Source: Pontederia crassipes (taxonomy: Eukaryota > Streptophyta > Magnoliopsida > Commelinales > Pontederiaceae). Taken from it: DNA of 64,000 nucleotides. Positions within the stretch are counted from its first letter, which is position 1. Every line of letters begins with the position of its first letter. Shown here one piece after another: positions 5,096 to 53,200 of this stretch. Made by a program: the position numbers and the translations under genes. A model generated the notes under the pieces. That model saw nothing but the letters and a program-made list of their open reading frames with translations. It was not told where the DNA came from and did no database searches. The DNA lies in contig CM060183.1 of assembly GCA_030549335.1 (NCBI GenBank), forward strand, positions 23,448,552 to 23,512,551, given 5' to 3'.

Positions 5096-5398
5096 GTATA
5101 ATAAGGACTTCTTTCATCCTCTTTGGTATTGAAATTTCTATGCAAAAGCCATAGTCAATAAATTGATTTTATTTTGTCACTATTTGAAATAATTTAATAG
5201 TTTTCTTTCTATCTATCTCTATCTGGCATTGAAAATTTTATGAACATCCATTATCAACACACTTTTTTTAGAGGGCACTATCAACACAATTGATTATATT
5301 CTTTGTCTTTTTAAGGCTGGCTCGTCCATGGCCTTAAGACTAGTTTCTTTGCATGTACTATAATCCTCAGTCACTAGATTTTAATATCAAAGCAAAGG
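5076..5398 (+). other. Unrelated AT-rich patch replacing the start of RT in element A
   Basis: After VFSEDISGD the expected first 100-130 residues of reverse transcriptase are missing. In their place lie about 300 bp of AT-rich sequence with no pol similarity. A direct repeat, TTTGTCACTATTTGAAATA, occurs at about 5078 and again at about 5173 inside the patch. It may be filler DNA from break repair or a small decayed insertion. Confidence 0.55.
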
Positions 5399-5399
5399 T

Positions 5400-6390
5400 G
5401 TGCTCCAAGATAAATCTCAAAAGTGGTTATCACCCCTACGAGTGGTTGAAGAAGATATTCTGCAAACGACATTCCACTCCTGCTATGGACATTATGAATT
5501 CGTGGTGATGCAATTTGGCCTGACAAATGCACCGGCAACTTTTATGGATATGATGAATAGGGTATTTCAGTTTCATTTGAATTAGTTTGTCATCGTATTC
5601 GTTGATGACATTGTGGTTTACTCAGAGAGCCATGATCAACACCGGGAACATCTGAAGACAATTTTGAAAACATTGCGACAATATAAGCTCTATGAAAAAT
5701 TTTCAAAATGTGAATTTTGATTAGAAGAGATCATGTTCCTCGACCATATAGTATCAAAGGATGGGATCTCAGTAGATCCATTTAAAGTGGAAGCATTTAA
5801 GAAATGGCCTCAACATAAGAATGCATATGTAATTAGAAGGTTCTTGAATTAGTAGGACACTATCGGAGGTTCATTCAGAACTTCTCCAACATAGCAGCAC
5901 CTTTGACCTAAGAAAGGGAGAGAAATATGTATAGATTACAAGGTGTGAGCAGAGCTTTCAAGAATTGAAGAAGAGGCTGAGTACAGCTCCCATTCTCACC
6001 ATCCTAGCTGGAATTGGTGGGTACATGATTTACAACAACGAATGTGGAACAGGTTTGGAATACGTGCTAATGCAACATGGTAAAGTTGTAGCCTATGCAT
6101 CCAGACAATTGAAAAGGCATGAAGTGAATTATTCCACACATGATTTGGAGTTAGCAGTTATAGTCTTCGCTCTAAAGACATGGAGACATTATATCTATGG
6201 AGAGGAGTTTAAGGTCTTTACAAATTATAAGAGTTTGAAGTATGTGCTCACTCGGAGAGACCTCAACATAAGATACAGAAAATGGATGGAATTGATGAAG
6301 GATTATGAATTTTTTATCAATTACCATTTAGTAAAACCCAACTAAGTGATAGACACACTAAGTCAAAAGTGGAAAGGATCACTTACCTTT
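5400..6390 (+). pseudogene. reverse transcriptase (C-terminal part) and RNase H of element A
   Basis: From 5430 the reading matches gypsy [20 protein letters not shown], then after a TAG the catalytic strand [23 protein letters not shown] with the DD pair, then [15 protein letters not shown]. The track changes frame near 5850. RNase H follows at 5965-6345, with [20 protein letters not shown] and [16 protein letters not shown]. Several in-frame stops and an internal shift make it non-functional. It is homologous over its length to 38588-39586 of element B on the other strand, where the same segment is nearly uninterrupted. Confidence 0.85.
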
Positions 6391-7905
6391 CTCAGATTAA
6401 GAAGATACGAGATGATACAAGAATTGATCAAGTGTAACCCAAGACCCGAAATGAATGGTGCCTTCATGATGATGCAGTGTATTGAGTTGGACTTGGTGAA
6501 CAAGATTATCAAGGTTGAACCTATAGACCCATAGTATAAAGATATGATGAAGAGATGTGATTCGGATGAAGAGGGCCTATAAATTTCAAGTGATGGTGGG
6601 ATCAGATATAGGAACTGCTTATGGGTTCCTAATGATTCAGCTCTAAGAAGGAAAGTACTAGATGAATGTCATAAATCTAAATTTGTTATTCATCCAGGTA
6701 GAAAAAAAATGTACAAAGATATTCAGATGAGCTTTTGGTGGTCAGATATGAATGGAGAGATTATTGAATATGTGTCAAAATGTATAATGTGTGAACAAGT
6801 CAAAGTGGAGCACGAAAGGCCCTATATATTCATTAAGATCTTGGAAATCCCATAGTGCAAATGGGAAGAAATAACTATGAATTTCGTGACCAATTTGCCT
6901 CGCAGACAGAAGAGTCACGATGCTATATGGGTGGTAGTGGATCGACTGACCAAGGTGGCCCACTTTTTACCTAGGAAGATGAAGCAAACTATTGAGAACT
7001 TAATGGATCTATATATAAAAGAGATAATAAGGCTACATGACAATCCGATAGGGATATCAGATTCACCTCAAAATTTTGAAAAAGTCTATAAAAAGCTTTT
7101 GGCACAAGGCTTAATTATAATATTGCCTTTAACCCTCAGACTGATGGTCAGTCAAAGAGGACCATTCAGACCATTAGAAAATATGCTCAAAGCTTGTACT
7201 ATAGACTGGCATAGTAGTTGGAATGATCACCTGTCATTAATAGAATTTGCTTATAACAACAGTTACAACTCCAGTACAGGCATGGCTTCATTTGAGGTCT
7301 TATATAGCAGACCATGCCGAGCACCCACATATTGAGATGAAGTATGAGAAAATAAGATTTTGACTACTAAACAATTAAAGTAGACTATGGAGTATGCAAA
7401 TAAGATGAAAATAATAAAGAAGAAGATGAAAGCAGCTTAGAATAGGCAAAAGACATATGTTGATAAAGGAAGAAGAGAATAAATCTTTCAGCAAGGTGAT
7501 AAAGTATTGTTGAAAGTTTCTCCTACTAAAGGAATGATGCAATTTAGCAAGAAAGGAAAATTAAACTCAAGATATGTTGAGCCTTTCGAAAAATTAGACT
7601 TAGTAGGAGAAGGGGCTTTCAAGTTAGACTTACCTTCATCATATGCAAGAGTGTACAATGTTTTTCAACAATGTTTTTCATGTGTCTCTTTTGAGGAAGT
7701 ATAAGCATGATGAGACTAATGTGATCCGAATCGATGATCCTAATCTCAAGGAGGATCTCACATCTGAAGAACAACCAATCTAGATATTGAAGTTTCAAAT
7801 GCAAAAGCAAGAAAACAAGGAAGTACATCATCAGGGCAATGAAGCCACGTGGGAATTGGAGGAAGAGATGCACCAATATTTTTCCCATTTGTTCGGTGAG
7901 TAAAA
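6391..7905 (+). pseudogene. integrase and chromodomain remnant of element A
   Basis: The zinc-binding N-terminus is seen near 6660-6800 (ECHKSKFVIHPGRKKMYKD, then CIMCEQVKVEHERP). The core begins at 6877 with MNFVTNLPRRQKSHDAIWVV and continues to NNSYNSSTGMASFEVLYSRP near 7255-7320. The C-terminal GPF-type segment (7507-7640) precedes a weak chromodomain at 7740-7900 ending ATWELEEEMHQYFSHLF. There are many stops. Part of the catalytic core between the second aspartate and the glutamate is shifted out of frame. The product would insert the element; the chromodomain of such elements is thought to steer integration to heterochromatin. Confidence 0.83.
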
Positions 7906-7925
7906 TTCAGGAACAAATTTTCTTT

Positions 7926-7938
7926 AAAGGGGTAATAA
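7926..7938 (+). other. Polypurine tract of element A
   Basis: AAAGGGGTAATAA directly abuts the 3' LTR, the position and composition required for plus-strand priming. Element B has a closely similar tract. Confidence 0.7.
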
Positions 7939-10354
7939 GGTAACACCCCAAGATTTTCTTGAATTAAATAATTAGATAAATAAAATATTTATTTATTTAA
8001 TTTTGAAAATTCAGTTAAAGTAAAAGATAAAAAGTTGATAAGTTAAAGATGGAAAAGAAATAAGTTGTAGATAAGACTTTGAGAAGAAGAAAAAAAAGGA
8101 AAAGAAAAAAAGATGAAGTAATTAAATTAGATTATTAATTAAGATTATAGATAAGGTTCAGAATTAGATTTGGGAGAAATTTAACATTTAATCCCGGATT
8201 AATCTTTAGCTCAAGTCAAAGTCTTCTCCCCTATAAATAAGCCCCTTTCGACCTTCGGCCTCCCTTTGCCAAAAAAATAGATTTTTCTCTCTACTTTGAG
8301 CCCTTATTTCTCCCTTCTCAGTGTGCATGTGCGAGTGCTCCAACCGGCCATCTAATCTCCGATCAACACTGTTAAAGGACGTCGAACTTATCGTCAAGAA
8401 CATCTCAGTCTTCTTGAAAACTATGTCCAAAGTTAGGCTGTTCAAGTAGTTTTGCCTGAACAAGGTACGTGGAATTCTAAGTTCACTTTTGAATGTGATT
8501 TCTTAATAGATTAATTAAAAACTCAAAAGATTAAGGCATGATTATTGATCTCTGCTTGTCTAAGAATATATTCATTTTTGTTCCATGTCGAAAGCATGTC
8601 TAGATTAGTCAAAAAGTTCGATTGAAGTTTTAGTTTTTCGGCACCGCAGTTCCCTTTATAGGAACCCGACCCGAGTTTGATGAACCTGACTCGGGTTTAC
8701 AAAGGATGGACGACGCTCGGGGTGCGCTATCAGAATCTGACTTGGATTCGATCTCTTCTCGGCCCATGTTTACATGGGCCCGACCCGAGTTCCCTAGTCG
8801 TCGACACACACGGTTCGATTTCCACAATGTGAGATCAGGAACGTGCTCCAGTACACTCGGCCTGGGTTCTGGAGGATGTTTGGGGAAGAAATGGATGTGA
8901 TGTCCCGGATCGAGTCTCCCATGACCCGATCCGCATTAGAGTAAACCCGGCCCGGGTTTGACTGTACTCGGCTCGAATTCTGCACCGATTGCAAAACTGA
9001 TTTTCTATTGATTCATAGATATGTTAAAAGTTTGTTTTGTCCTTATTATTATATTGATGAACTGAATTGATAGATAAATATGAAAATATAAAAGCTGAAA
9101 AATGGGATCCTCGTGTGCATTGTTTGTTATAATTAAAGTTAAAGAAAGGAAATCCTTGTCGTCCTACTTGGGTAACCTAGAGAAGTCCAAGTCTATTTTT
9201 GTGAGTAAGTAAATGCTCACCGGGTCCTGGTGTGATCTCCCTTGATCTACTTTTTATAGTCACATGAAAGTGTCATGTTAATTCATAATAAAAGAAGTCG
9301 AGCTTGTCCCGGATCGAGTCTCCCATGACCCAATCAGCATTAGAGTAAACACAGCCCGGGTTTGACTATACTCGGCCCGAATTCTGCACTGATTGCAGAA
9401 CTAATTTTCTATTGATTCATAAATATGTTAAAAGTTTGTTTTGCCCTTATTATGATATTGATGAACTGAATTGATAGATAAATATGAAAAGATAAAAGCT
9501 GAAAGATGGGATCCTCATGTGCATTGTTTGTTATAATTAAAGTTAAATAAAGGGAATCCTTGTCGTCCTACTTAGGTAACCTTGATAAGCCCAAGTCTAT
9601 TTTTGTGAGTAAGTAAATGCTCACCGGGTCCTGGTGTGATCTACCTTGATTTACTTTTTATAGTCACATGAAAGTGTCATGTTAATTCATAATAAAAGAA
9701 GTCGAGCTTGTTTAGGACAACAAACATAGAAGTCCTTAATAAATGTCTAAAGTAAAAGATGTAATGAAATGTACTAAAGAAGAATTGTTATAAAAAGAAA
9801 AGTATAGAAAGAATAAAAAAGAATGAAAATCAAATGTAAAGTTTGGCATTGTTATTATATGTTATTTGATGTATACGACTTAATTGCTAATCTTGTTCTA
9901 TTTAAATTATTGCATCCATTTGTGTTATTCCATGTACTAAGCGTATTTTGCTCACAGATATTCCATGTTCCTGTGTTTGAACCCCACATATAATTGATGT
10001 CATAGATGGAGGCGCGTGCGACAGTGGAGTTCGTGATGATGCAGTTGCACATTAGAATCAATCTTAGATTTTGCTATTAGAGCTCCCTTAGTTTATTTTG
10101 ATGTAATAGAAATTTTATAGTATGTGAAAGTAGAAGACTTCTCGGAACAGAAAATAGTTAGCTTCCATATTATATTCTTACTTTAGTTATTATTATTTAT
10201 TATGAATTGATCTATTTCCACATTTTTATGAAAATAGTATTATTGTTCTTTGTCGTCTTATTGTATTATGAAAACTCATAAAGAATTATGTGTATAAGTA
10301 ACATCGGCCCAATTAGCCTTATGTATTAGGAGGGCGAAATATGAGGGCATTATA
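7939..10354 (+). repeat. 3' LTR of element A (2.4 kb, with internal duplication)
   Basis: Begins GGTAACACCCC, a mutated TGTAACACC, and ends near CATTATA at 10354 just before the right AAAAC duplication. It contains a 404-bp tandem duplication at 8901-9709. The non-duplicated length would be about 2.0 kb, like the LTRs of element B. No coding content. Confidence 0.8.
8901..9709 (+). repeat. 404-bp tandem duplication inside the 3' LTR of element A
   Basis: Two head-to-tail copies, 8901-9304 and 9305-9709, both starting TGTCCCGGATCGAGTCTCCC and ending GTCGAGCTT, with only scattered differences. The 5' LTR is cut off inside this segment, so whether it carried the duplication cannot be told. Confidence 0.85.
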
Positions 10355-15371: not shown

Positions 15372-16133
15372 TCATTTCCAATCCAGCATGTCTAAAAGCC
15401 ATAAGACCTCGTTCTCGGAGTTTGCAACATCACAGAAATCTATCTCGACGCAGAACACTTCAAAGGTATTGCTGATGCTGGTGGCCATAAATAGTAGCGA
15501 AACCCAAGCTCGAATTCCAGGAATGAATGGGTGTTTTGGTGCGAACACTAGGTAGTCATATGCCACTGCAAGGAAAGCATTAACATCAAAGTATTCAAAA
15601 GGGGCTTGATTCAGAAGGCATGCCATCTCATTTGTATCTCTGCGACTCACAAGAACAGTCACACAGATCGCGTCGCCTGATAATGAAAGGGTGAACCTTG
15701 GATCCACTTGCATTATCATTTTGTAGTCAGAATTATTCAAATGAGCCCTGAGAGTGTCAGGTGTGCCCGTGGGTGGGTTCTTTATACCTTTGTGGAGCAG
15801 ACTGCCAGAGACTGTTTCAGAGAATATCAATTTTTGTTCAGACCATATGTCAATGTAGAAATCCAAATCATTGAATGATAGCCTTGATGGAAGAAGCTTC
15901 TGTGGTTGTTGGCGTTTTGAAAAGGTTACAAAAAACTTGTAATAGCTTATGGCTGCGGGAGGTCTTCTAGAAATTGAAGGCCATTGCTTCTCACATATAC
16001 ACTTCCAGAAGTAATCATCCTTGGCAATGTCTCTCCATTGTCGGCATACCAACATGCAGGAAGTTAGATCTTTACCATCTAGCAATGGAAAGATATCCTT
16101 TAGCGCTTCACCATATAACCAATCTTTTGACAT
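15372..16133 (-). CDS. F-box protein (At5g39250-like), 253 aa
   Basis: A single uninterrupted exon encoding 253 residues. The F-box motif occupies about residues 4-48 (LKDIFPLLDGKDLTSCMLVC, then RQWRDIAKDDYFWKC), the part that binds a SKP1/ASK adaptor of an SCF ubiquitin ligase. The rest has no LRR or Kelch repeats but follows, from memory, the small plant F-box family typified by Arabidopsis At5g39250: the DIWSEQKLIFSE segment, PFIPGIRAWVSLLFM, and the end EEVLWLLDMLDWK-type tail (here NEVLWLLDMLDWK). The length equals that family's. The first ATG after a good splice acceptor is taken as start. A 5' UTR intron upstream is likely (see 16189-18176). The substrate is unknown. Identity as an F-box gene is sure; the orthology is inferred. 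Confidence 0.93.
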   Translation of the reverse strand: MSKDWLYGEALKDIFPLLDGKDLTSCMLVCRQWRDIAKDDYFWKCICEKQWPSISRRPPAAISYYKFFVTFSKRQQPQKLLPSRLSFNDLDFYIDIWSEQKLIFSETVSGSLLHKGIKNPPTGTPDTLRAHLNNSDYKMIMQVDPRFTLSLSGDAICVTVLVSRRDTNEMACLLNQAPFEYFDVNAFLAVAYDYLVFAPKHPFIPGIRAWVSLLFMATSISNTFEVFCVEIDFCDVANSENEVLWLLDMLDWK

Positions 16134-16188
16134 TTTGTTTTGCCAATATGTTCAGGGACGAATTATGACATAAGAACACCAATTTTCC

Positions 16189-26604: not shown

Positions 26605-27779
26605 ACTCCTCTAGCTTTTAACGTTGTTTGTCTGATCTATTGAATGGATATAATTGTGAGATGACATGGTGCATACACAAACTTATGCATGCACGGTCCA
26701 TCCATTTGTTGTTGAACCGTATCTAAACCAGCACCCATGTATGTGTACTTACCCGAGCAAGAGACTAGTGGAATTAACTCTATTATGATTTTTTACGAGA
26801 TCCTTTAAGGTTTTGTTTTAATAAAATTTCATAAAAGGAAATGAGGAGAAAATTTTAACTTGACATGGATGAAGGGGAAGGGAGGAAAAAAAATAAATAT
26901 TATTGTTATATGACAATATATACCTTTTCAATTATAATAAAAAGTTTATAAATCCCAGAATAATTAAATAATTTCATCTGTTATTTTTTTTACTTCCATC
27001 CATCTCCTTTACGCTTCCAAATCGGGATTATAGAAAAGCTGACCAGAAAGAAAAAAAAAAGAGGGCCTTTTTCCTTTCCCCTCCCTTAAATTTCATCCAA
27101 ACTGAGTAAAAGAAAATTTTACTTTCATTCTCCCTCTTCTCCCATTCAAACAGGGAAAGGGTTCTCATGTTTCTTCCTTCTTTGAGCTTATATTATGGAA
27201 AATAGGTGGGCATCTATAAATTATTATGTCTATATCAACGTGTAAATAATTTGACGAATGAGTCATCACCAATATTGTCATTATTGTCTATTGATCATGC
27301 ACAAATTCAAGTAATAAAAAAAATGCGTATTTTTTATATTATACATTATCATTCCATTGCATGAAACATATATTAATATAAATAAGTAAAACTTCAATAT
27401 AATAATTATTGGTCATATGGGCACTATAATAATCAGTCAAATGATGAATAGTTAATTATTGATTAAGAATAATATATCAATTATCAATCATAAATGCATG
27501 CATCAAATATCCGTTGGTTGTCAATTAATTATTAACTAGGGAACATTCTTGCACTTCGTGCAATTTTAACTAATTTATTATATTTAAGATTAAATTAACT
27601 TGTAAATCTTTTGCTATAATATACTAATTACATAGGATATAATCCAAGAAGGGATGCAAGATTTTTTGCAGAGTGAACAAATTTTGTATTATGAAAATAA
27701 TATAAAAAATATTTTACACATATTTTACCCATCCTCATGGGTTATCACTTACATAATCATACATATTAATTTGAAGGGA
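26605..27779. other. AT-rich intergenic DNA, nothing recognised
   Basis: No gene-like frame. At 27552-27566 TTGCACTTCGTGCAA forms a short perfect hairpin of unknown meaning. Confidence 0.5.
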
Positions 27780-28570
27780 TTTAATGTAATGATAATTAAA
27801 TGAATCTTTGTAGCATATATAGCATTTAAGTTAGTAAATTAATAAAATTGTTGAAAAGTGTAAGAAATTGGAGAATATGAATTGTTATATACGTTTTATT
27901 CGTAAATATTTGCTTTTATAATTAAAAGGTGAGAAATTCTTATATTATTGACATATTAAATGATAAAATTTAAGTATGCAAGTAAAATTGCTGAAAAGTG
28001 TAAAAGACGTGGGGAACATGAATGATTATATATGTGTTTTTAGATTTCGTTTTATAGTTAGAAGGTGAGAAGTTTTTTTTATATTATTGGCATCTTTAAA
28101 TGAATTTTTATGGTTAGAAGGTGCCAAGCTTTCATATTATTGACATCTTAAATGAATCGTTGAAACATATATAGCATTTAATCAATAATTTGTTTTTGAA
28201 AATTGTAAAAAATTCAATAAAAGATAAGTAAGAATGATGACTTCATATTGATTCTAGTGCAATTCTAGTTCCATATATATATATATATATATATAAAGAA
28301 TTAAATGAATTTTTGTAATGTATATAGCATTTAAGTAAGTAAATACAATTACTTATAAGTGTAAAAAATATGGAGAATATAAATGGTTATATATGTGTTA
28401 TTAACAACTTATGGTTAGAAGGTCAGAAGTTTCTATATTATTGACATCTTAGATGAATCTTTATGTTACAAAGTGAGAAGTTTTCACATTAATTGACATG
28501 TTAAATTAATTAAGTAAATACAATTTCTGAAAATTGTAAAAAATTTAAAACATGATGACTTCATAATTAT
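27780..28570 (+). repeat. Degenerate AT-rich tandem array, unit ~140-200 bp
   Basis: A word set recurs in fixed order about five times: ATATATAGCATTTAA, GAAAAGTGTAA (near 27853, 27989, 28195, 28345 and 28527, the third and last diverged), GGAGAATATGAA with TATATATGTG, GGTTAGAAGGTGAGAAG, and ATATTATTGACATCTTA. Spacing between copies varies from about 136 to 206 bases and copies are diverged. No coding potential seen. Confidence 0.7.
28274..28296. repeat. (TA)n microsatellite
   Basis: Short TA run between units of the AT-rich tandem array. Confidence 0.9.
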
Positions 28571-28575
28571 TATAA

Positions 28576-28646
28576 TGCATATATATATATATATATAGGT
28601 ACATATAATGTGTATATATATATGTATATGTATATGTATATATATA
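28576..28646. repeat. Compound (TA)n/(TATG)n microsatellite
   Basis: TA run, then TGTATA/TATATG variants. The apparent isoleucine/tyrosine-rich frame across it is an artefact. Confidence 0.85.
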
Positions 28647-28659
28647 AATAACATTTTCA

Positions 28660-29812
28660 TAATAAAATTCCCCAATTCTTTTACAATTGATAAAGCATTT
28701 CAAAAACATTTTATAGAAAAAAAATGAGTCATATTGAGAAAATTAAACAGAATGCAAGACATGGATCTCCTTTTTATAGAATCTACAAAATTAAATTTTA
28801 GAAAATGAAATGAAAATATGATAAAATTATTTCTAAAAAAAAATAAGGTAGTATTCAGAGATTTGTGATTGTTCGAGAAAAAATAACATTATCATTTGAA
28901 AAATTACTATTATTGTTTATTTAAATGAATTATGAATGTTTTTATCTTTATCAAATATAATAAAGTGATAATAATATATATTTTAGAAATGACAAATAAT
29001 ATCACACTTGTGAAAAAAAGACTGGTCCGCGCATAAATTTAATTCGATATTCGCTTTGTGAAGTTCTTGATTACAGAAATACCATTCAACACTTTTTGCC
29101 GCTGCTCATCAATTTTTTTATACTTTTTTTTGTTACAAATGCCCCCAGAATAAAATTCATCATTGATAATTTAAAGTATTTGCTTCTTGCCAATATTATA
29201 TATATAGGATTTATATATTCAGATTCAACCATAAAAGTATTTATTCAAAATTTAAAAATAATAATAATTTTTGAAGTGATAATAATTATTTTCCTAACAA
29301 TCAGGAAAAAATATTGAACACATAAAAAAAACCTACCGGACCCATGAAAAGCCCGAAGTAATGGTTGGCCATGATTAGGTTCGTTAATGATATGCAAAAG
29401 CTTGCAATGGCTTGTGGTCGTGCAAAACTGGACGCAGAGGACAACACGACGCAACGTACGCACTCACGCACATGTCTTTGCCCAATTGTATTATTGAAAG
29501 GAAAAGAGAAAGAGAACTCCTCTTTCGGTTTCAAATATATAATGAGAGAGAAAATGGGGGTGAACAAAAAAGGAGAGATGGATCACGTTTACGGAAAATT
29601 AAGTTACAAAAGGATGAATAATTAACATCTCAAATTAAATGACAACTTTTCAATTTTTTTTACATTTCATGTTCTTTTTTAAAAAAAGATCCAGATTCGA
29701 TGATCTATCACAAAAATGATAATACACAAAATAATTCCCTTGGAATAAAATTAGAAAAGAAAAAGAAATAAAAAAATAAAATCACATGAATGCTTGACTG
29801 TAGAATTAACGA
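28660..29812. other. AT-rich intergenic DNA, nothing recognised
   Basis: Short frames on both strands at 29245-29625 overlap each other and have no recognised domain. No transposon ends seen. Confidence 0.5.
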
Positions 29813-29932
29813 TTAATGGATTAAAAAACTCATCGTAGTGGCATCAACCTGGAGACCATCCCACGTCGCTACCCCCTTGTCGACTGCCCCGACAACCTGC
29901 TGCAAATGCTGCTGCTGCTGATGCTGATCCAT
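29813..29932 (-). pseudogene. Q-rich ORF fragment, 39 codons, abutting the SPX fragment
   Basis: Starts ATG immediately after the TAA that ends the SPX fragment (TAA-ATG, no spacer) and runs MDQHQQQQHLQQVVGAVDKG for its first half. The composition is unlike its AT-rich surroundings. It may be a third captured gene piece or the tail of the same chimeric locus. Family not recognised. Confidence 0.4.
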
Positions 29933-30351
29933 TTATGGCGACTGTTCTGAAGGCGAGAAGGGGGTCGACCTTTCGCCAGCAGGCGAGTTGGAAGTCCGCC
30001 GTGAGCTGGAAGTTGCCTTGAGATCGAGGATGTCCATTTGCTTCTTCAGGGACTCCCCTCTCTCCGTGAACTCCTTCTCCTTGCCCTTGTAGAACTGGTT
30101 CAGTTTGTTGAGCTGAAGTTCGAGACGCGCAAAGAAGTCCTTGGCCGCGTCACAGTCCTGGAACAGCTCCAGCAGCTCGGTCTTGTACTGGAGCTCCAGC
30201 TGAAGGATCCTCGCCGCGGGGGAAGCCTTGGCCGTCCTCGGCGAGGACTTGCATCCTCTTGAGGTCCTTTTTGAGCTGCCAGTAATCCACAAAAGCCTTC
30301 TTCCATTTTTGGAAGGATCTGCCCCTTGAACTGCTTTGAGAACTTGACCTT
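29933..30351 (-). pseudogene. PHO1-like SPX domain fragment, frameshifted
   Basis: The minus strand shows the start of a PHO1-family SPX domain spread over three frames: [13 protein letters not shown] (near 30348), then [20 protein letters not shown] in another frame, then from about 30215 [20 protein letters not shown] and [20 protein letters not shown] to a stop at 29933. SPX domains sense inositol pyrophosphates, and PHO1 proteins export phosphate through a C-terminal EXS domain, which is absent here. The initiator Met of PHO1 is replaced by Lys, because the sequence is joined directly to the ERF fragment. At least two frameshifts make it a pseudogene. No intron interrupts the SPX stretch. 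Confidence 0.85.
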
Positions 30352-30738
30352 CTCCCCCGTACGCCATAGAACTCTATGGTCGCGAGGTTGTACACCGGTG
30401 CGGCCTCCTCCGCCACATTGAATGTCCCCATCCACTTGCTTTGGGGTCCCTTATCTCCGCCGTCCACTTCCCCCATGGCCGTTGCCGCACGCCGCGGTGG
30501 ATGTTCTTCTTCCACCGCCTCCTCCAGCTCCCTGCGATGCCGCCATTCTCCGTCGCGAGGACGAAGGCAGCCTCTAACAACTTCCTGTGTTCCGAACGTG
30601 AAGGAGTTGCAGCTCAACTAATCGCCGCCGACGCTACAGAGGTGAATTCAGGTGGGGGCGGGGGGAGGAGCAGTAGCCAGAGAGGACGCGAACGAACGTG
30701 GTGGCCAGAAAAGAGCTCTCCTGCTCCATCTGTTGCAT
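30352..30738 (-). pseudogene. AP2/ERF transcription factor fragment, frameshifted, fused to SPX
   Basis: An ERF DNA-binding domain is clear but split between frames: [20 protein letters not shown] (30499-30440), then [20 protein letters not shown] and EFYGV (to about 30360). The order matches the three-strand sheet and helix of ERF domains that bind GCC-box DNA. An ATG at 30738 (MQQMEQESSFLATTF) could be the original start; it stops at 30634 and is out of frame with the domain. The sequence passes into PHO1-like SPX coding sequence within a few bases of the domain's end, so the locus is a fusion of two unrelated genes on one strand. Not functional as read. Confidence 0.85.
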
Positions 30739-30759
30739 GGGGTTGCGGCAGTGCATCGA

Positions 30760-30800
30760 CGGAGGTTTATAACTGCAAGGAGTCTGGACGCAACGACGTC
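30760..30800 (-). promoter_or_regulatory. Possible captured ERF promoter (TATA and ACGT palindrome)
   Basis: On the minus strand AACGACGTCGTT (with the bZIP core GACGTC, about 30788-30799) is followed by GTTATAAACC (about 30765-30774), some 30 bases before the broken ERF start at 30738. If real, promoter and exon were copied together as DNA. Confidence 0.35.
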
Positions 30801-30920
30801 GTTTCATTTTTGCAAACTGCGAACACGGAACGTCGATTCATTCTTCACACGAAATTGGAAGATATGAAAATAAACTGGCGTCCGTCAAACCACTTGGTAT
30901 TCCATCACCTTGCAATGTGA

Positions 30921-31466
30921 AGCTGTTCAAAAAAATAACTGAGGATGTAAGTCTTACAAAAAAAATAAATAAATGAGAATGTAAGGCATCCGACGTTTGA
31001 ATTGGGATTTAAGGGAAAAACTTTTTTTATCACTGCAATGGATTCAGCCAAAAAAGGAGAAAAAAAAATAGGAATGGAGAAAGGGGAGGTGGAATATGTC
31101 ACTCCTCTCAAATTAGTTAATGATAATAATGAAGTAATTAAAACGGTCATGGTCAAAGACTTCGTGACACGTTAATAGAAGTTTAAAATGAAAAAATGGA
31201 GAAAAAGGATAAATGACAATGAAGACTGATTTGAAAGCTTCAGTTTATATATATAGATAGATTAAGACACGTTTTGTGAAATATATAAAGTCAAGTCATT
31301 TAATATGTAGTAAATGACATTTAGTGGATTTGTGATTTGGAATGGTGTTAACTGCAATACGTTATACTTAGAGGTAAAAAGATGAGAGAAATATATGATT
31401 AAAACTCAAATGCATCACAAAAAAAATTAATGAACAACTTGGAAGGAGAGAGCTCCCAATTCACCA

Positions 31467-31469: not shown

Positions 31470-31557
<88 letters not shown>
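31470..31557. repeat. (TA)44 microsatellite
   Basis: Uninterrupted TA run of 88 bases, the longest in the window; also a strong potential cruciform. Confidence 0.97.
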
Positions 31558-34996: not shown

Positions 34997-36980
34997 TGTA
35001 ACACCCCCGAATCGACCCCCGCCATGTGACGAAGACCAACCTGAAGGCGCTACGGCATGCTATACTTGACCATAACTTTGATCATATCTCAGTCAATAAC
35101 TGAGACACGTCAACGAAAAAATAAAATAAAAAAATAAAGGAAGATAACATAAATATGTGGATGTCTAAAAAGTGGCTATCTCATTGCTAAGAAAATAAAA
35201 TAGGTTTTACATCATGATTCTAAAATGCGGAAGGTAAATAAAACGAATAAACATTCTAAGAAATCCTATGGTTCATGTGATGTCCTATCGCCAGAGCTTC
35301 ATCACCACACGCCTACTCCACCATGTCACTGATCTGGTCCTGTGAAAATTAAACATACGGGAGGAGATCCTCCCGTAAGCTTTACAGCCTAGTGAGGAAC
35401 CACATGATATACAATGCATGACATGAATATAATAATTAGTGATAAATAATCATGCTTAACTTGAAGGTGAAAAATAACATGTCAGTATCATAGATCATAA
35501 TATGGATAAGATCAGAGGATATCATGAATCAATAGAGTAACATGATGACTAATAAACATGAACTTATAATATACTTGAAAATCATGACAGTAGCTTGATT
35601 TGACTTTACTTGAACATGCTTTTTGATCTTGGTTATTAATTAACAATCAGGGTGACTTTGAGTGTTTTTAATTTTTGGGGTATGCCCAGCAAACGATATA
35701 GCCTTGTGCGGGTCAATGGGTGATCAAACCATGACCAAGGGAGCGACCCTTATCTTGATGCACTTCGCTTGGACTGGCAAGTCATCATTAATCTTTCATC
35801 TGAACTTATTAATCGCTTTTAACAACTTGTGGCTCATTGTTCTTGATTTCATGGATACATGTGAAATAAATTAATAAGGGAGTAAATCATGTAAATCAGT
35901 GATGGATCTCTATGGGGTTAGACAATAGGATCAATCATATATATATAAATAATATCTGGATAAAAAGGAAAATAATTAATAAGTATAATGAAAGGTTTTC
36001 TAAGAAATCGGTCGATCGATTCGGGGGAACGGTCGACCGGTAGTCTGTTGATCTGTCGATCGGTCTGTTAAGATCGATCGACCGATAGGTCAAGTCGGGT
36101 TTAATTGGTTCGGTCAATCCGTTCGGTTGAACGGTCGACCAGTTAGCAAGGATCGGTCGACCGGTGACAAGGATCGGTCGATCGATTGACATGTGTAGAA
36201 AGGGTCTGTACGCAAGTTATCGGTCGACCGATTGTCGCGATGCATACGGGCCGGTCGACCGGTCGGCGTCCAAAAAATTTGCAGAACCCTCGAATTTCGT
36301 AATTTCTTCGGTGCAATCTCCATCTAACCTAATTCCTACCACTAGCAAATCAATCACATAACAACAGATCAACAAACAATGAATTATGCATGCAAATAAT
36401 CAATCAATCAATCAATTCAAGAAAATCAAGCAAGGTAAAACAAGGAACTTGAACCATCTTTTCCTCTTCTTCTTTACTTGTACGATTAGGGCATGATTTA
36501 ACGTTATTCAGGGGTCATGCAAAGTGATTTCGATTCACCCACCTCGATTCGTGGCTAATTCGTTCTTCGGTTCGTCGGAAATTCGATTAATGACGCCCCT
36601 GTTCTTCCCCTGGTTCCTCTCGGCCAATCAGCGCTGAAAATCCAGCGAAAAGGGTTGAAGAACAAGCGTGCGGAACAGAGAATTGCAGTAGGAAAGAGAA
36701 AAAGTGCTTGATCCTCGACGGCTCACTTTCTGGCCGAAGACAGCCTGCTTGCAGTAGATCGAACAGGGAAGAGTTTCTTGTTCACGTGCTTGGTCGGCCT
36801 TGGATTAATTGGAGGGATTTTTAACTAATCCCTTTTTTCTAATCCCACTTTAATTTGATTAATGAGATAAAAGTTTTTATCTCTCAAGTCCAATTTTAAT
36901 TGGACTTTAGGTTTATCTTTTACCGGTGTTTGGTCGAATCTTACTTCATCTTTTTTTTTTAACTGGTGTCGGTTATTACA
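34997..36980 (-). repeat. 3' LTR of element B (left-hand copy)
   Basis: 1984 bp, paired with 41133-43097. Contains the GGTCGACC palindrome array at 36007-36270 and ends GTTATTACA. The segments 35340-35420 and 35640-35900 are nearly identical to the other LTR. Confidence 0.95.
36007..36270. repeat. GGTCGACC palindrome array in the 3' LTR of element B
   Basis: About nine imperfect copies of ATCGGTCGACCGGT, each a near-perfect palindrome, separated by irregular 10-30 base spacers. The partner LTR carries the same array at 42153-42412. Confidence 0.9.
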
Positions 36981-36995
36981 TTCTTACCCCCTTAA
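36981..36995 (-). other. Polypurine tract of element B
   Basis: On the minus strand TTAAGGGGGTAAGAA directly precedes the 3' LTR; compare AAAGGGGTAATAA in element A. Confidence 0.85.
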
Positions 36996-37021
36996 AAAAA
37001 AATTCGTCCTCGAATTTTGCA

Positions 37022-38320
37022 CTAAGTAGAGGGCTTACCTAAAAGATGAGGAGATTCTTGACGCATTTTCGACTCGAGTTCCCATGTTGCATCGTCTCCA
37101 TTATGGTACCGCCAAGCTACCCTGACCATGGGCACATTCCTGTTATTCTGACGTTGCACTTTGCGATCCACTATATGCGTTGGATACTCATCGAAGGTCA
37201 AGTCTGCAGCTATATCTGGCTCATCTATCCTTAGAACATTTGCAGCATCGTGCTTATACTTTTTGAGCATGGATACATGGAATACATTGTGCACTCTCCC
37301 ATAAGATGGGGGTAGAGTCAGTCTGCATGTTGCCTCGCCTACCAGCTTGAGTATCTCAAATGGGCCTACATAGCGAGGACTGAGCTTTCCTCGCTTGCTG
37401 AATCTCATGACTCCTTTCATAGGAGATATCTTCAGAAGAAGTTGGTCCCCAGCTTGAAAGATCTGCTCTCGTCTGCCTTTGTCAGCATAACTCTTTTGCC
37501 TTCCTTGAGCAATCTTCATCCTTTGCTTAATCAATTCTATCTTTTCTGCATACTCCACTGCATCTTTTACTTTTTTCTTACTCATGATATTTTTCTCGCC
37601 TACTTCACTCCAGTGGCTAGGTGAACGGCAATGTCGTCCATACATGGCCTCAAATGGTGTTATACCAATACTAGAATGGTAGCTATTGTTATAAGCAAAC
37701 TCAATCAAATGAATGTACTCATCCCAGCTACCCTGTCAATCTAGTGCGCAAGCCCTTAACATGTTCTCTAGTGTCTGGATGGTCCTCTCAGACTGCTCAT
37801 CGGTCTGAGGGTGAAATGCTGTACTAAAATTAAGCCTTGTACCAAAGGCTTCCTGCATGCTCCTCCAGAATCTGGCAGTGAATTCGGGATCTCGATCAGA
37901 CACTATGAACTCTGGGATTCCATGGAGTCCGACTACTTCTCTCATATATAAGTCTAGCAGACTCTCCACTGATTGCTTTCATCGGATTGGAATAAAATGT
38001 GTCGCCTTTGTGAAATGATCCATGACTGCCCATATGGCATCGTGACCTTTCTTAGTCCTAGGCAAGTTGGACATGAAATCCATTGTGATCTTATCACACT
38101 TTCATTGTGGGATTTTCAAAGGCTTCAACTTGCCATACGGTCGTTGATGCTCAATTTTGACTTACTAACACACTAGGCATCGGGATATATATTCTGCTAT
38201 TTCTCTTTTCATGTCTGGCCACCAGTAGCTGCGCTGGACATCTTTATACATCTTGGTGCTATTGGGGTGGATAGCGAACTCCGACTTGTGGCACTCATCC
38301 AGTACCTCTCGTCGGACATA
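37022..38320 (-). pseudogene. integrase with C-terminal chromodomain of element B
   Basis: Reading from 38320 down: zinc-binding segment ECHKSEFAIHPNSTKMYKD and CLVC (about 38300-38168); catalytic core with MDFMSNLPRTKKGHDAIWAV, IVSDRDPEFTARFWRSMQEA and the glutamate in GITPFEAMYGRHCRSP (D,D-35-E); the GPF-type segment GKLSPRYVGPFEILKLVGEA; and a chromodomain at about 37185-37040 (HIVDRKVQRQNNRNVPMVRV, then ATWELE). Stops at 38162-38167 (two, adjacent), 38102-38104, 37979-37981 and 37736-37738 break the frame, all at Gln or Trp-type codons. The last 228 codons (37708-37022) are open. Function in a live copy: insertion of cDNA, with the chromodomain guiding target choice. Confidence 0.92.
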
Positions 38321-38377
38321 AGTATCAGTGGGAATCCACAATCTGTCCCGATATCTAATCCCTCCATCTGCAGAGAT

Positions 38378-40024
38378 CTAAAAATCTGCTGGTTCATTCT
38401 GGCACCTCTTAAGAACTTTCTGATATTCAGGATCTACTTTCTGAGCTATTATGATCCTGTCAATTAAGCTGGGCTTCATCTGATGCATCATCCATAAAGC
38501 TCCATTCATGCCCAGCTTGAGACACCATTGCTCAATTTCTTTCAGCATCTCGTACTCGCGTAGTCTCATATAAGCTAGCGAGCCTTCTCACTTCCTGCTT
38601 AATGCATCGGCGACTGAATTTGCTTTATCCGGATGGTAATTGATAGCAAATTCATAATCCTTGAGGAGCTCAAACCATCGTCGTTGCCTCATGTTAAGAT
38701 CCCTTTGATCGAAAATGTACTTGAGACTCTTATGGTCAGTGAAGATCTCGAACGTCTCTCCATACAAATAATGTCTCCAGATCTTCAGAGCAAATACCAC
38801 AATTGCCAATTCCAAGTCATGTGTGAGATAGTTCACATCATGCTTCTTCAGCTGCCGAGAAGCATAGGTTACCACTTTGCCGTGTTGCATCAGCACACAA
38901 TTCAATCCTGTCCCACACGCATCACTGTAGACCATGAAGCCTCCATTGTCTGTCGGTATGGTGAGAATTGGTGCTGAAATCAGACGGTCCTTCAGAGTCT
39001 GAAAACTCTGCTCACACTTGCCTGTCCATATAATTTTTTCTGCCTTCTTTGTGAGATTTGTGAGGGGTGCAACAATTTTGGAAAAGTCCCTAATAAATCT
39101 TCTATAATACCCCGCTAAACCAAGGAAGCTGCGAATCTCAGAAGCACTCTTCGATCTTGTCCAATTCATCACCGCCTCCGCTTTCGCTGGGTCTACTGCA
39201 ATGCCCTTCTTGGAGACGATGTGTCCCAAGAACATGATCTCTTTCAGCCAGAATTCACACTTTGAAAACTTTTCATAAAGCTTATGCTGTCTCAGGGTCT
39301 CCAATACTATCCTGAGATGCTCTCGGTGTTGCTCTGGACTGGAAGAATAGATCAGAATGTCATCCACAAATACGATGACAAACTGGTCTAAATATGGTCG
39401 AAAGACCTTGTTCATTAAGTCCATGAACGCGGCAGGAGCATTCGTCAGTCCAAATGGCATGACCAAGAAATCGTAGTGGTCATATCTTGATCGAAAAGTA
39501 GTTTTCGGTATGTCCTCTTCAGCCACTCTTAACTGGTGGTAGCCACTACGTAGGTCTATCTTAGAGAACACCGATGCTTTTGACAACTAATCAAAAAGGT
39601 CATCTATCCGAAGCAAGGGGTACTTATTCTTCATTATCACTTTATTGAGCATCCTATAGTCGATGCAGAGCCACATGGAGCTATCATTTTTCTTGACAAA
39701 CAAGACCGGTGCGCCCCAAGGTAAGACGCTCGGTCTGATAAATTCTTTGTCCAGTGGCTTCTGTATCTGCTTCTTCAGTTCCTGCATTTCAGCAGGTGTC
39801 ATGCGGTATGGTGCTTTAGAGATGGGTGCAGTTCCAGGGAGGAGCTCTATTTTAAAGTCGATTTTCCATTTCGATGATAATCCAGATGTGTCCTCATGAA
39901 ACACATCTGGGAACTCCCGCACCACATCTATCTGTTGGAGCTGGTGCATCCGTCTTGACCACACTAGCCAAGTACCCACAGCATCCTTTCTGCAACAACT
40001 TATGAGCCTTGATCGTTGAGACAA
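38378..40024 (-). pseudogene. reverse transcriptase and RNase H of element B
   Basis: 40024-39587 carries the RT start: [37 protein letters not shown] and [24 protein letters not shown] at 39587-39589 replaces the Gln of the usual LFDQL. 39586-38588 is a 332-codon open stretch with [32 protein letters not shown], the catalytic [11 protein letters not shown], then RNase H ([36 protein letters not shown]) ending ADALSRK. A TGA at 38588-38590 sits where element A has Trp. 38569-38378 continues toward integrase. Only point nonsense changes separate it from an open frame. Confidence 0.93.
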
Positions 40025-40084
40025 TGACCTTGTTCTTTGTTGATGGAGTGTCTCTGATCACTGCCTTAGGCTTGCCTTGCGTCC

Positions 40085-40640
40085 CTATAACGATCTTCTT
40101 CTATTTGCATTGCAAGGCTGCATCGTGATACGAAAGTCAGTCCATCCTAAAATGACGTTGTAATCCACCATGGGGATGACTATGAAGTCTGCAGAAAAAT
40201 TTTTCTTGTCTACATTGATAGGTACATTCGGGATGTACCTGGCAGCATGGAGAGTACCCATAGGTTTACTCACACGCATAGCATGGGGCATCTGCTTCTG
40301 AGGTAGACTAAGAGTTTGGGCACACGACTCCGAAATAAACGAGTGTGTAGCCCCAGAATCAAATAAAATAGTAGCAGACAAGTTGGTGATCGGGAGGGTA
40401 CCTCTAATGACATCATTGTCATTTTTGGTTGCATCAGCTTCCAGGTTGTGCACACGACCTTGCACAACGAAATTTGCACCTCCTGCTGCCCGATTGTCTC
40501 GGCTCCCTCTAGCAGCCTGTGGGCAATTTCGGATGAAATGTCCGAACTGTCCATACTGAATGCATGCGCCGCTCAGTCTACGACACTCTCCATCATGGTG
40601 ATGACCACAGTGAGGACATAAATGCTTCTATGGCACTTGT
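40085..40640 (-). pseudogene. zinc knuckle and protease of element B
   Basis: At 40620-40515 (minus) lies a gag C-terminus with CPHCGHHHDGEC and a CCHC knuckle ACIQYGQFGHFIRNC, whose second Cys is Tyr, so zinc binding would be impaired. A TAG at 40628-40630 precedes it. 40465-40085 is open and encodes the protease with an intact LFDSGATHSFISE active site and VDYNVILGWTDF. The capsid part of gag is absent upstream. Confidence 0.88.
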
Positions 40641-41115
40641 GGCTGGCGTGGTGGTGGTGGCAGTTGTCTCAGTGGATGTGCTTGCATTGGCGCAGGGCGT
40701 AGTTGAGCTTGAGCCTGTCTTGGAGCTTCTCTCTGCTGATATGGCCTGTAATGGCGATCACGGCAGTCGTTCCTCCTAAATGGCCGCTGATCATCCGTTC
40801 GAGGCCTAGGCTGCTCTATTGCTTTGGTTGGAGCTTTGGCTGGGCGGCCCCTATCTCAGGAAGTGCGCCTTCCGATGCCTCATAAAGATTTCGGTCCGTT
40901 CTGACCTCTTGAATACGCTATGACCGTCGTGATATGCTTATCCTCTATTCATACAATAAAATCATGCATCAAGAAATCATAACTTATCTTAAACATAAAC
41001 TTGACTTACATTGCTTTTCGGTGGAGGGTGTGGCGATTGCTCGGCGATAGCACATGAACCTTTTATCATACTATACTATTCTATACACTAGGACGTCAAG
41101 AGAGTCCTAACTTTA
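40641..41115 (-). other. Leader and remnant of gag tail of element B
   Basis: Downstream of the PBS come about 200 bp of non-coding leader, then a proline/glutamine-rich reading (PPPPRQPQ near 40640-40680) like the segment before the gag zinc knuckle. The capsid-coding region expected here, 700-1000 bp, is missing. Confidence 0.65.
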
Positions 41116-41128
41116 GGCTCTGATACCA
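41116..41128 (-). other. Primer-binding site, initiator Met-tRNA
   Basis: On the minus strand TGGTATCAGAGCC starts a few bases after the end of the 5' LTR and matches the complement of the plant initiator methionine tRNA 3' end. Confidence 0.92.
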
Positions 41129-41132
41129 TAAA

Positions 41133-43097
41133 TGTAACGCCCCCAAATTGACCCCCGCCACGTGACGAAAACCAACCTGAAGACGCTACGGCATGCTATA
41201 CTTGACCATAACTTTGATCATATCTCAGTCAACAATTGAGACACGTCAGCGGAAAAATAAAATAATAAAATAAAGGAAGATAACATAAATATCCGGAAGT
41301 CTAAAAAGTGGCTATCTCATTGCTAAGAAAATAAAATAGGTTTTACATCATGATTCTAAAATGCGGAAGATAAATAAAACGAATAAACTTTCTAAGAAAT
41401 CCTATGGTTCATGTGTTGTCCTATCGCCAGAGCTTCATCACCACACGTCTACTCCACCACGTCACTGATCTGGTCCTGTGAAAATTAAACACACGGGAGG
41501 AGATCCTCCCGTAAGCTTTACAGCCTAGTGAGGAACCACATGATATACAATGCATGACATGAATATAATAATTAGTGATAAATAATCATGCTTAACTTGA
41601 AAGTGAAAAATAATATGTCAGTATCATAGATCATAATATGGATAAGATCAGATGATATCATGAATCAATAGAGTAACATGATGACTAATAAACATGAACT
41701 TATAATATACTTGAAAATCATGACAGTAGCTTGATTTGACTTTACTTGAACATGCTTTTTGATCTTGGTTATTAATTAACAATCAGGGTGACTTTGAGTG
41801 TCTTTAATTCTTGGGGTATGCTCAGCAAACGATATAGCCTTGTGTGAGTCAATGGGTGATCAAACCATGATCAAGGGAGCGACCCTTATCTTGATGCACT
41901 TGACTTGGACTGGCAAGTCATTATTAATCTTTCATCTGAACTTATTAATCGCTTTTAACAACTTGTGGCTCATTGTTCTTGATTTCATGGATACGATAAG
42001 ATCAATGCGAAATAAATTAATAAGGGAGTAAATCATGTAAATCAGTGAGGGATCTCTATGGGGTTAGACAATAGGATCAATCATATATATATAAATAATA
42101 TCTGGATAAAAAGAAAAATAATTAATAAGTATAATGAAAGGTTTTCTAAGAAATCGGTCGATCGATTCGGGGGAACGGTCGACCGGTAGTCTGTTGATCT
42201 GTCGATCGGTCTGTTAAGATCGATCGACCGATAGGTCAAGTCGGGTTTAATTGGTTCGGTCGATCCGTTCGGTTGAACGGTCAACCAGTGGGCAAGGATC
42301 GGTCGACCGGTGATAAGGATCGGTTGACCGGTTGACATGTGCAGAAAGCATCTGTACGCAAGTTATCGGTCGACCAATTGCCGTGATGCATACGGGTCGG
42401 TCGACCGGTCGGCGTCCAGAAAACTTGCAGAACCCTCGAATTTCATAATTTCTTCGGTGCAATCTCCATCTAACCTAATTCATATCACTAACAAATCAAT
42501 CACATAACAACAGATCAACAAATAATAAATTATGCATGCAAATAATCAATCAATCAATGAATTCAAGAAAATTAAGCAAGGCAAAACAAGGAACTTGAAC
42601 CATCTTTTTCTTTTCTTCTTTACTTGTACGATTAGGGCATGATTTAACGTTATTCAGGGGTCATGCAAGGTGATTTCGATTCACCCACCTCAGTTTGTGG
42701 CTAATTCGTTCTTCGGTTCGTCGAAAATTCGATTAACGACGCCCATGTTCTTCCCCTGGTTCCTCTCGGCCAATCAGCGCTGGAAATCCAGCGAAAAGGG
42801 TTGAAGAACAGGCGTGTGGAACATATAATTGCAGTAGGGAAGAGAAAAAGTGCTTGATCCCCGGCGGCTTGTAGTAGATCGAACAGTGAAGAGTTTCTTG
42901 TTCACGTGATTGGCCGGCCTTGGATTAATTGGAGGGCTTTTTAACTAATTCCCCTTTTTTCTAATCCCACTTTAATTTGATTAATGAGATAAAAGTTTTT
43001 ATCTCTCAAGTCCAATTTTAATTGAACTCTAGGTTTATCTTTTACCAGTGTTTGGCAGAATCTTACTTCTTTTTTTTAACTGGTGTCGATTATTACA
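41133..43097 (-). repeat. 5' LTR of element B (right-hand copy)
   Basis: 1965 bp, paired with 34997-36980; GTTAG follows at 43098. The palindrome array is at 42153-42412. A 30-bp stretch present at 36725-36750 of the other copy is missing near 42860, one of the few length differences. Confidence 0.95.
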
Positions 43098-50075: not shown

Positions 50076-50124
50076 TGGGCTTTACTGGATGGGCTTCCAA
50101 TGGGATATGATATGATCTTGGGCC
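50076..50124 (+). promoter_or_regulatory. Three site II (TGGGCY) motifs before the COBW gene
   Basis: TGGGCT at 50076-50081 and 50090-50095 and TGGGCC at 50119-50124, all on the plus strand, 120-170 bases before the chosen ATG. Site II elements are TCP-bound promoter motifs common in plant housekeeping genes. No clear TATA box is seen, which is usual for such promoters. Confidence 0.55.
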
Positions 50125-50243
50125 TTGGCGTTTATGGTCACAAACATGCTAATATTTTCTCGGCATTACCGCATTGTTTTTCTGTGGGCACTTTCTTCTC
50201 TTGCTTTGGTCTTCGAATTGTCGCTACATTTCGTTTGCCGATT

Positions 50244-53200
50244 ATGGAACTGGACGCCGGCGACAACGACGATGCAGTTCCTCTTGCTATCCGAATCGAA
50301 GACCAGGAGGGAGAACTCATACGACCGCAGCAGCGGCAATCCGAAGAGGATTTCCGGCCCGTATCTTCCACTGATGCGGAGAATCTCGGAGGTTGTTTGC
50401 AATCGCCCGTCGGAGTTACCGTCGTCACCGGGTACCTCGGCGCTGGAAAGTCTACGGTCTGTTTCATGTTACTTCTAGATCTCCTGTACGCACTTGGCTT
50501 AGTGTGTCGATTTATCCTTCTGTTATCGGCACATGGTAGCTCGTGCTTCCGGGGCTTAGGGTTTAGGCACGTTGAGTTTGCGTCTTTTAGGTTGACTGCA
50601 TCCCTAGTCGACCTTTATTGTTGCAATATAAAGTAAAAGTTACCTGATTATGATTATTATTCTTTTCCAACGTAACAATGTGATTTTTTGCAACTTTATG
50701 CTCTTCTGCTTTTTTATCCATCATATATGCATGTGAATACGTTTTATGTTTATTGTCGGTATTTTGATTGCATTGTTATAACTGAATATGTGTAATGAGA
50801 TTTTTAAATTGGAAATCGAAGTAAGAAAAACGAAATCATGTGAATACGGACTAATTGTAAAAACTTTGAATCTGACACTCTACAATGTTACAATAATTGA
50901 TTTAAAGGTTTCCAAGTTTTATATTTAATTCAGCTTAAATTGCATGCCAATTGAAATTCATCCAGGCAAACCAGTGAACATTTGTTTTATAACCCTCCAA
51001 AACGTTGGTATTTGTACGTGTGGAAGTTTGGAGCAGTATCTAAATTTTGGTCTTTTCATTTGATTGAACTCCAGCTAGTCAATTATATTTTGAATGCTCG
51101 ACATGGAAAGAAGATTGCAGTGATACTAAACGAGTTCGGTGAGGAGATTGGAGTTGAGAGGGCAATGATCAATGAGGGAGAAAATGGAGCAGTTGTTGAG
51201 GAATGGGTGGAGTTGGCTAATGGGTGTGTTTGTTGCACTGTCAAGCACAGCCTTGTTCAGGCACTGGAACAACTTGTTCAAAGGAAAGACAGGTTAAACT
51301 CCTTTCTTCCGTCACTGTATTTGGCCACTTCATTTTTCAAACCTGCTCGCAATCGTGCTCTAATATTGTATTTGTTCTCATAAGTTGGATTAAATGATAA
51401 AGTTAGTTTTTCTTTTTTCACTTACACACCTCTACAACTTCGAAAAGAAGAGAACATGAGGAATATTATTAATCCATGGACTGATATTCTAATATGATTT
51501 CTCTTGTGCTTTTGACATAGGCTTGATCATGTATTGCTAGAGACAACTGGTTTGGCTGATCCTGCTCCTCTGGTTTCTATTCTCTGGCTCGATGATCAGC
51601 TCGAATCAGCAGTGAGGCTTGATTCTATCATCACGGTGAGTTTCTCAAAGTAATATTTATGCTTATGCACTTCTGTAGTCAGAATATCGATGCCCAGCTG
51701 CTTCGTATATTATGACCTTTCTATATTGAAATCAATATTTTGTTTCTTAAACTCTGACTAATACATGTATTTTCTTTCATTTCTCACACTCGTGTTTTAT
51801 CAAATATCAAATTCCGACATGCAAGCATTTATTGTTTGGATACCCCTATTTCCACTCCAAAGCACACTATTGCCACTCCATCATGTGAGTGCTAAAAATG
51901 TTAGACATTTTTATCCTTGTGAGATAAAATGGAGTGACAAAAGTGTTTTTGGGAGTGACAATAGTGATGCCCTATTGTTAATATACAAGAAAGATGAATA
52001 TGATATGTGGAAGAAGTAATAGTTTACAATGATGTTTTTCTTTTTATATTGTTTCTCCTTCGTAGAGAAAAAGGTGTGTTGTGATTATGTAAACTATTTA
52101 ATGAGATTTTACGGTCGAAAAAGATGCCTGATGATTGGAGATTAAGTACATTAGTTCCTATTTACAAAAATAAAGGGGATATTCAGAATTGTGCAAATTA
52201 TAGAAGGATTAAACTTATGAGTCACACAATGAAATTATGGGAAAAAGTGATTGAGCATAGATTGAGAATGGAGACAAGTATTTCTAAGAGACAATTTGGG
52301 TTCATGCCAGGAAGATTCACTACAGAGGCAATTTATTTACTAAGGGGGATGATGGAGAAGTATCGAAGTAGGAGAAGAGACTTACATATGACTTTCATTG
52401 ACTTAGAGAAGGCGTATGATCGGGTACCAAGGAATGTACTTTGGAAAGCCTTGCAAAAGAAGAGGGTGAGTGTTGCCTACATTAAGGTAATACAAGATAT
52501 GTACGATGGGGCATTGACTAGGGTTAGGACACCCGGAGGTGAGACAAATGAATTTTCTATAGGAATTGGCCTACATCAAGGATCAGCTTTAAGCCCGTAT
52601 CTATTTAACTTAGTTATCGATGCTATAACCGAGAGTATCACAGAGGAGGTACCTAAGTGCATGCTATTTGCGGATGATATAGTACTTTTAGCGGATTCAA
52701 GAGAAGAGATTAATACAAAATTGAAAATATGGAGAAATACGTTGGAGTCAAAGGGTTTTCGTTTAAGTAGGAATAAAACAGAATATATGCATAACAATTT
52801 CACAAATAAACAACTTAGAGACAATTTGAAAGTTAGGCTAGGGGAGGATATAATTTCTCAAGTGACAAAGTTTAAATATTTAGGATCAATTGTAAGACAA
52901 GATGGTGAGATTGATGACAATGTTAATCATAGAATTCAAGCTGTTTGGTGTAAGTGGAGGAAAGCCACTGGAGTTCTTTGTGATAGAAAAGTACCCAATA
53001 AAGTTAAAGGAAAATTCTATCGTACTGCTATAAAGCCAGCAGTGTTATATGGTAGTGAATGTTGGGCTATGAAGGGACAACATGAACGTAAAGTGGGGGT
53101 AGCCGAAATGAGGATGTTGAGATGAATGTGTGGTCATACAAGATTAGATAAGATTAGGAATGACCATATACGTGAACGAGTCGGAGTGGCTCCTATTAGT

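Follow-up and report, generated by a model that had tools for sequence, protein, structure and literature searches.

We find that the window, the whole stretch of 64,000 nucleotides analyzed here (positions 23448552-23512551 of contig C1), very probably contains a non-autonomous Helitron on the minus strand that has as its cargo an ERF gene copy enclosing a fragment of genomic PHO1 DNA. The element is ordinary in kind, a Helitron gene mosaic of a known type, and it is unusually well resolved. A single genome (1.13 Gb in 43 contigs were searched) contains the candidate donors, the two junctions and copies that either have or lack the second capture, so that break-repair as a model of capture can be studied at single-base resolution. 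The locus therefore serves as a clear example of how a Helitron can capture genes in nested fashion. It also carries a warning for annotators, who should not call an ERF-SPX fusion gene here.

The ERF-PHO1 chimera is genuine. Read along the minus strand, ERF sequence gives way to PHO1 SPX sequence near 30355-30358, and ERF sequence resumes near 30014-30016. The 5' half of the ERF copy, together with its upstream TATA/ACGT region, lies at 30355-30830 and includes an AP2 domain with a frameshift, as identified by alignments and domain matches. The PHO1 fragment (30014-30358) comprises the end of the 5' UTR, part of exon 1 and part of exon 2, with the SPX domain. The 3' half of the ERF and its 3' flank, including a glutamine-rich tail, occupy 29611-30015 and align to the 3' portion of ERF genes located on contigs C6 and C5. 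When the ERF peptide is read through, with X at the frame changes, it matches AtERF1 (PDB 2gcc, E 5.5e-13) and, at a score below the 33.3-bit cut-off, the Pfam AP2 domain (28.3 bits, E 2.2e-6). One open frame of the ERF part matches AtERF1 at 1.2e-6, and no single open frame of that part reaches Pfam AP2 at E 1. The open frame at 29936-30373 matches both Pfam SPX (E 7.5e-16) and Arabidopsis PHO1;H1 (E 1.2e-18). The similarities to AtERF1, SPX and PHO1;H1 hold up and bear out the initial annotation, which had read an ERF-to-SPX chimera on one strand. Two further details of that reading are confirmed. The TATA/ACGT stretch before the ERF part can be aligned to the DNA upstream of two ERF genes, where TATAA and ACGT occur as well, and the initiator codon of PHO1 is indeed replaced, with AAG instead of ATG at 30349-30351, a loss also found in the related copies on C9, C27 and C4.

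A genome search with 29813-30760 returned at least 53 matches. Parts 557-915 and 24-203 of the query find their matches in one set of ERF genes, on C6 and C5, in which about 10-20 bp separate them, and parts 202-385 and about 400-546 match PHO1 genes on C13, C10 and C9. The glutamine-rich tail matches the stretch ...SPADGQSTTPSPSEQPPLIEQQQQPQQVGAVDKG... of an ERF gene with an intact ORF (locus L015, 286 amino acids from the first Met). Since the tail matches this ERF, and since both outer parts match the same ERF genes, the PHO1 piece interrupts the ERF copy. These alignments place the PHO1 fragment within the ERF copy, and the order first proposed (ERF, PHO1, glutamine-rich piece) has to be replaced by ERF, PHO1, ERF. 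A third captured gene as the source of the glutamine-rich piece was considered and rejected, because the junction alignments and L015 identify the piece as the ERF tail. The TAA-ATG described before the glutamine-rich frame is present, with the TAA at 29933-29935 inside the ERF 3' half; the separate glutamine-rich piece that it seemed to introduce is not, being that ERF half itself. ERF relatives have a leucine where the window has TAA-ATG (SEQSPLMEQQ, SEQPPLIEQQ), and the motif is thus a stop within the ERF 3' half; no third gene begins there.

The search for donors and junctions that the initial annotation had recommended recovered candidate donors in the same genome, namely the ERF clusters on C6 and C5 and the PHO1 gene on C13, as well as the junctions in other copies. 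The C13 gene contains both SPX and EXS parts. It is 87.4% identical to the PHO1 fragment of the window over 349 alignment columns, and 90.7%, 89.1% and 86.0% identical to the PHO1 region of the copies on C9, C4 and C27, respectively. The other two PHO1 genes share 75.1-81.9% identity with these three copies, and 78.5-81.9% when C9 and C4 are taken without C27. By sequence identity, the captured piece is closest to the C13 gene among the three PHO1 genes. As read by eye from the alignment, PHO1 intron 1 in locus L013 (around 4360-4560) seems to begin with GC, not GT, with GCATTC following exon 1 and GCAG preceding GTGCAC.

Both junctions can be followed at the base level. Read in element sense, the first joins ERF ...GTACGGG to the last 5'-UTR bases of PHO1, GGAGAAGGTCAAGTTC, where the C13 gene has GGAGATGGTCAAGTTC. 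At the second junction PHO1 ends with ...CTCAAGGCA and ERF resumes with ACTTCC...CTCACGG. Roughly 6-9 nt of the ERF (AKL codons) were lost at the PHO1 insertion, at the end of the AP2 domain. At the second junction, ERF and PHO1 both have AGCTCAA; at the first, the match between them is looser. Such short matches would fit filler-DNA repair or template switching. Four of the six related loci have the first junction (window, C9, C27 and C4, the last with a small deletion beside it), and four have the second (window, C27, C4 and C14).

Related copies are present on C9, C27 and C4, and partial copies occur on C14 and C6. In the first three, exon 1, intron 1 and exon 2 of PHO1 remain colinear with their counterparts in the C13 gene. 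Because intron 1 is retained in these relatives, the captured material was genomic DNA. The window has a deletion of its own on the minus strand at 30198-30199, where C9, C4 and C27 have 224, 268 and 272 additional nucleotides, respectively. Intron 1 is missing as a result, along with the end of exon 1 and the beginning of exon 2; as the exon ends are gone too, the intron was lost through deletion and not through splicing. The window, C9, C27 and C4 have in common a +1 insertion in SPX exon 1. In the AP2 domain, a 4-nt deletion is common to C9, C27 and C4, and the window has a 10-nt deletion. The ERF and PHO1 frames, read by eye, disagree at the first junction in the window, C9 and C27. Since the frame lesions and the lost ATG are shared, the cargo was already non-coding in the common ancestor of the copies. 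The C14 copy has the second junction only, with no recognizable PHO1 exon 1 or ERF 5' half. An LTR was inserted in the C4 copy with a GTGGT duplication, and other DNA was inserted in the C9 and C6 copies.

The carrier is far larger than the 29813-30760 first assigned to it, and extends on the minus strand from a secure 3' end at 27536 to at least about 31257, the first candidate for the 5' end. Helitrons are known to terminate at the 3' end with a short hairpin about 10 nt before CTRR, to be followed there directly by T, to begin at the 5' end with TC after an A, and to lack both terminal inverted repeats and target-site duplications. In element sense, the 3' end of the window element (27535-27563, minus strand) reads TTGCACGAAGTGCAA-GAATGTTCC-CTAG, then T, with a stem-loop TTGCAC-GAA-GTGCAA (stem 6, loop 3) and a 9-nt spacer before CTAG. 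The window, C27 and C4 copies align up to this CTAG, and their flanks beyond it are unrelated. The window has a perfect stem, whereas those of C4 and C27 have decayed. A search of the genome with a degenerate pattern for this end gave 33 exact matches, including the window, compared to none for a reversed-pattern control. Twenty of the other 32 matches (289 bp each) all lose similarity to the window past CTAG, with an ungapped identity of 0.23-0.45 over the next 40 bases. T follows CTAG in all three copies found by alignment (window, C4 and C27), which alone are independent for this base, as it was built into the pattern of the 33 matches. Inside the element, AT-rich tandem repeats with units of about 51-56 and 140 nt span 27794-28608. 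Three of the Helitron 3' ends in the genome lie on C6 at 16779097, 16781560 and 16784021, spaced by 2463 and 2461 bases, possibly as a tandem array.

A Rep/helicase protein distinguishes autonomous Helitrons and is dispensable for a non-autonomous one. No PF14214 Rep domain was found in the window among the matches listed (150 of 163 candidates scored). The genome does encode Helitron Rep domains, with at least 93 PF14214 matches, some of which are pieces of one copy. We looked for an autonomous partner at three of the 93 Rep matches, each read with 8 kb on its 3' side; none has the 3' end described here, and a perfect GC-rich hairpin plus CTAG is absent from these three stretches.

At the opposite side, 31257 is a candidate for the 5' end of the Helitron, as judged from sequence features. 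The candidate terminus TCTATATATATAAAC, preceded by A, lies at 31257, and ATCTATATATATAAAC spans 31243-31258. The family-like TCTATATATATAAA, likewise preceded by A, lies at 31257, and in the C14 relative the same motif abuts the CTAG of another Helitron. Sequence common to the window and other copies continues for 230-250 nt beyond 31257 and stops beside a (TA)n tract, at 31490 (C9), 31487 (C4) and 31508 (C6:54.6M). For maize helA, several 5' ends per element are described in 17.6% (PMC3288121).

The initial annotation had attributed a multi-gene capture to a Pack-MULE or a Helitron. Capture is upheld, with a Helitron as the carrier, and the three pieces come down to two donor genes. Pack-MULEs, which are defined by long terminal inverted repeats and a 9-11 bp target duplication, are known to capture gene fragments and to carry chimeras of them, a likeness to the cargo described here. 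However, the end that the copies have in common is an asymmetric hairpin with CTAG. The ends of both types of element had been proposed for a search around the chimera; the Helitron 3' end is there at 27536. Among the inverted-repeat pairs of the 27.0-33.5 kb region, 384 in all, the 25 longest have TA-repeat arms throughout and show neither long terminal inverted repeats nor target duplications of the MULE type. A Pack-MULE carrier is highly improbable. If a chromosome segment bearing an ERF-SPX fusion gene had been duplicated, with no transposon involved, this would account for the several kilobases common to the copies, but we consider such an event very unlikely. Parts of the element are present at six loci on six contigs, the left ends of the window, C27 and C4 copies coincide at CTAG within unlike flanks, and 20 further loci share this end. 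The disagreement of the ERF and PHO1 frames at the first junction also speaks against a fusion gene.

The absence from the window of the PHO1 intron that C9, C27 and C4 retain would be expected from a processed, reverse-transcribed chimera, of which precise loss of the intron and a poly-A tail are the marks. Yet the gap also takes away adjoining exon sequence, and colinearity with other copies extends into the flanks on either side of the ERF copy. Retroposition was rejected, given the imprecise deletion and the lack of poly-A after the chimera on the minus strand, and its probability is minimal. An assembly artefact at the junction is the explanation to which we assign practically no probability, and nothing was found in its favor: each junction recurs in four of the six related loci, and the junctions are for this reason not assembly errors.

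A minus-strand Helitron with a nested cargo may have formed in two steps. A copy of an ERF gene, from the upstream region to the 3' flank, would have been taken up first. A break inside the ERF would then have received a copy of PHO1 genomic DNA, through either filler-DNA repair or template switching; Rep/helicase proteins supplied by other Helitrons may have spread the resulting non-coding composite. On C3 and C8, ERF copies that lack PHO1 contain element DNA also found in the window. The C3 copy has in common with the window element the 3' flank and a decayed 3' end, and the C8 copy adjoins a related tandem-repeat array. In a FastTree phylogeny of 16 sequences, C3 groups with the chimeras (0.867); in the IQ-TREE phylogeny of 16 sequences, it falls outside them at 54, and a short C7 fragment is placed among the chimeras. 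These trees are weak, and the order of ERF first and PHO1 second is likely but not proven.

The element most likely does nothing for its host. The ERF promoter that was captured might still permit transcription. That this promoter drives a putative non-coding ERF-PHO1 transcript from several Helitron copies, giving rise to small RNAs whose targets are the ERF cluster and PHO1, is unlikely; if true, small RNAs would link two unrelated processes, a transcription-factor pathway and phosphate transport.

Stepwise capture and filler-DNA capture by Helitrons have both been published (PMC3288121, PMC6544945). Maize non-autonomous helA (Dong et al. 2011, PMC3288121) resembles the window element in its 3' CTAG end, the stepwise gain of fragments of several genes, the multiple 5' termini in one element and the loss of internal sequence. 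Unlike helA, the element described here resides in a different genome, with a different terminal sequence (TTGCGCGAAGCGCGAG..TGTTCCCTAG), and has its second fragment within the first captured gene. Insect Hel1 elements (Han et al. 2019, PMC6544945), whose captures are explained by filler-DNA repair, show similar stepwise internal acquisition with short matches at the junctions; they are animal elements, and their captures are no nested plant gene pair. In the open-licence literature searched, we found no paper that joins Helitrons with PHO1 and SPX, and none on Helitron-captured AP2/ERF gene fragments.

AP2, SPX and F-box genes as well as Ty3-type retroelements are present in the window and indicate that the DNA comes from a plant. 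A Ty3-type LTR retrotransposon at 34997-43097, coding on the minus strand, has LTRs that are 93.5% identical and GTTAG on either side. The LTR that interrupts the C4 Helitron copy is about 81% like that of this element. A second Ty3-type element (2533-9711) has more diverged repeats (79%) and contains, at 8901-9711, a 407-bp stretch duplicated in tandem with 94% identity. Pieces of a LINE-like reverse transcriptase with zf-RVT lie at 52085-53440 and 53597-53929, and the stretch 53225-53475 is repeated at 57320-57570 with 93.6% identity. The window further contains an F-box gene exon at 15375-16151 on the minus strand and a CobW region at 50076-51380 on the plus strand, with a CobW-domain exon at 50955-51380 and a weak CobW match at 50076-50633.
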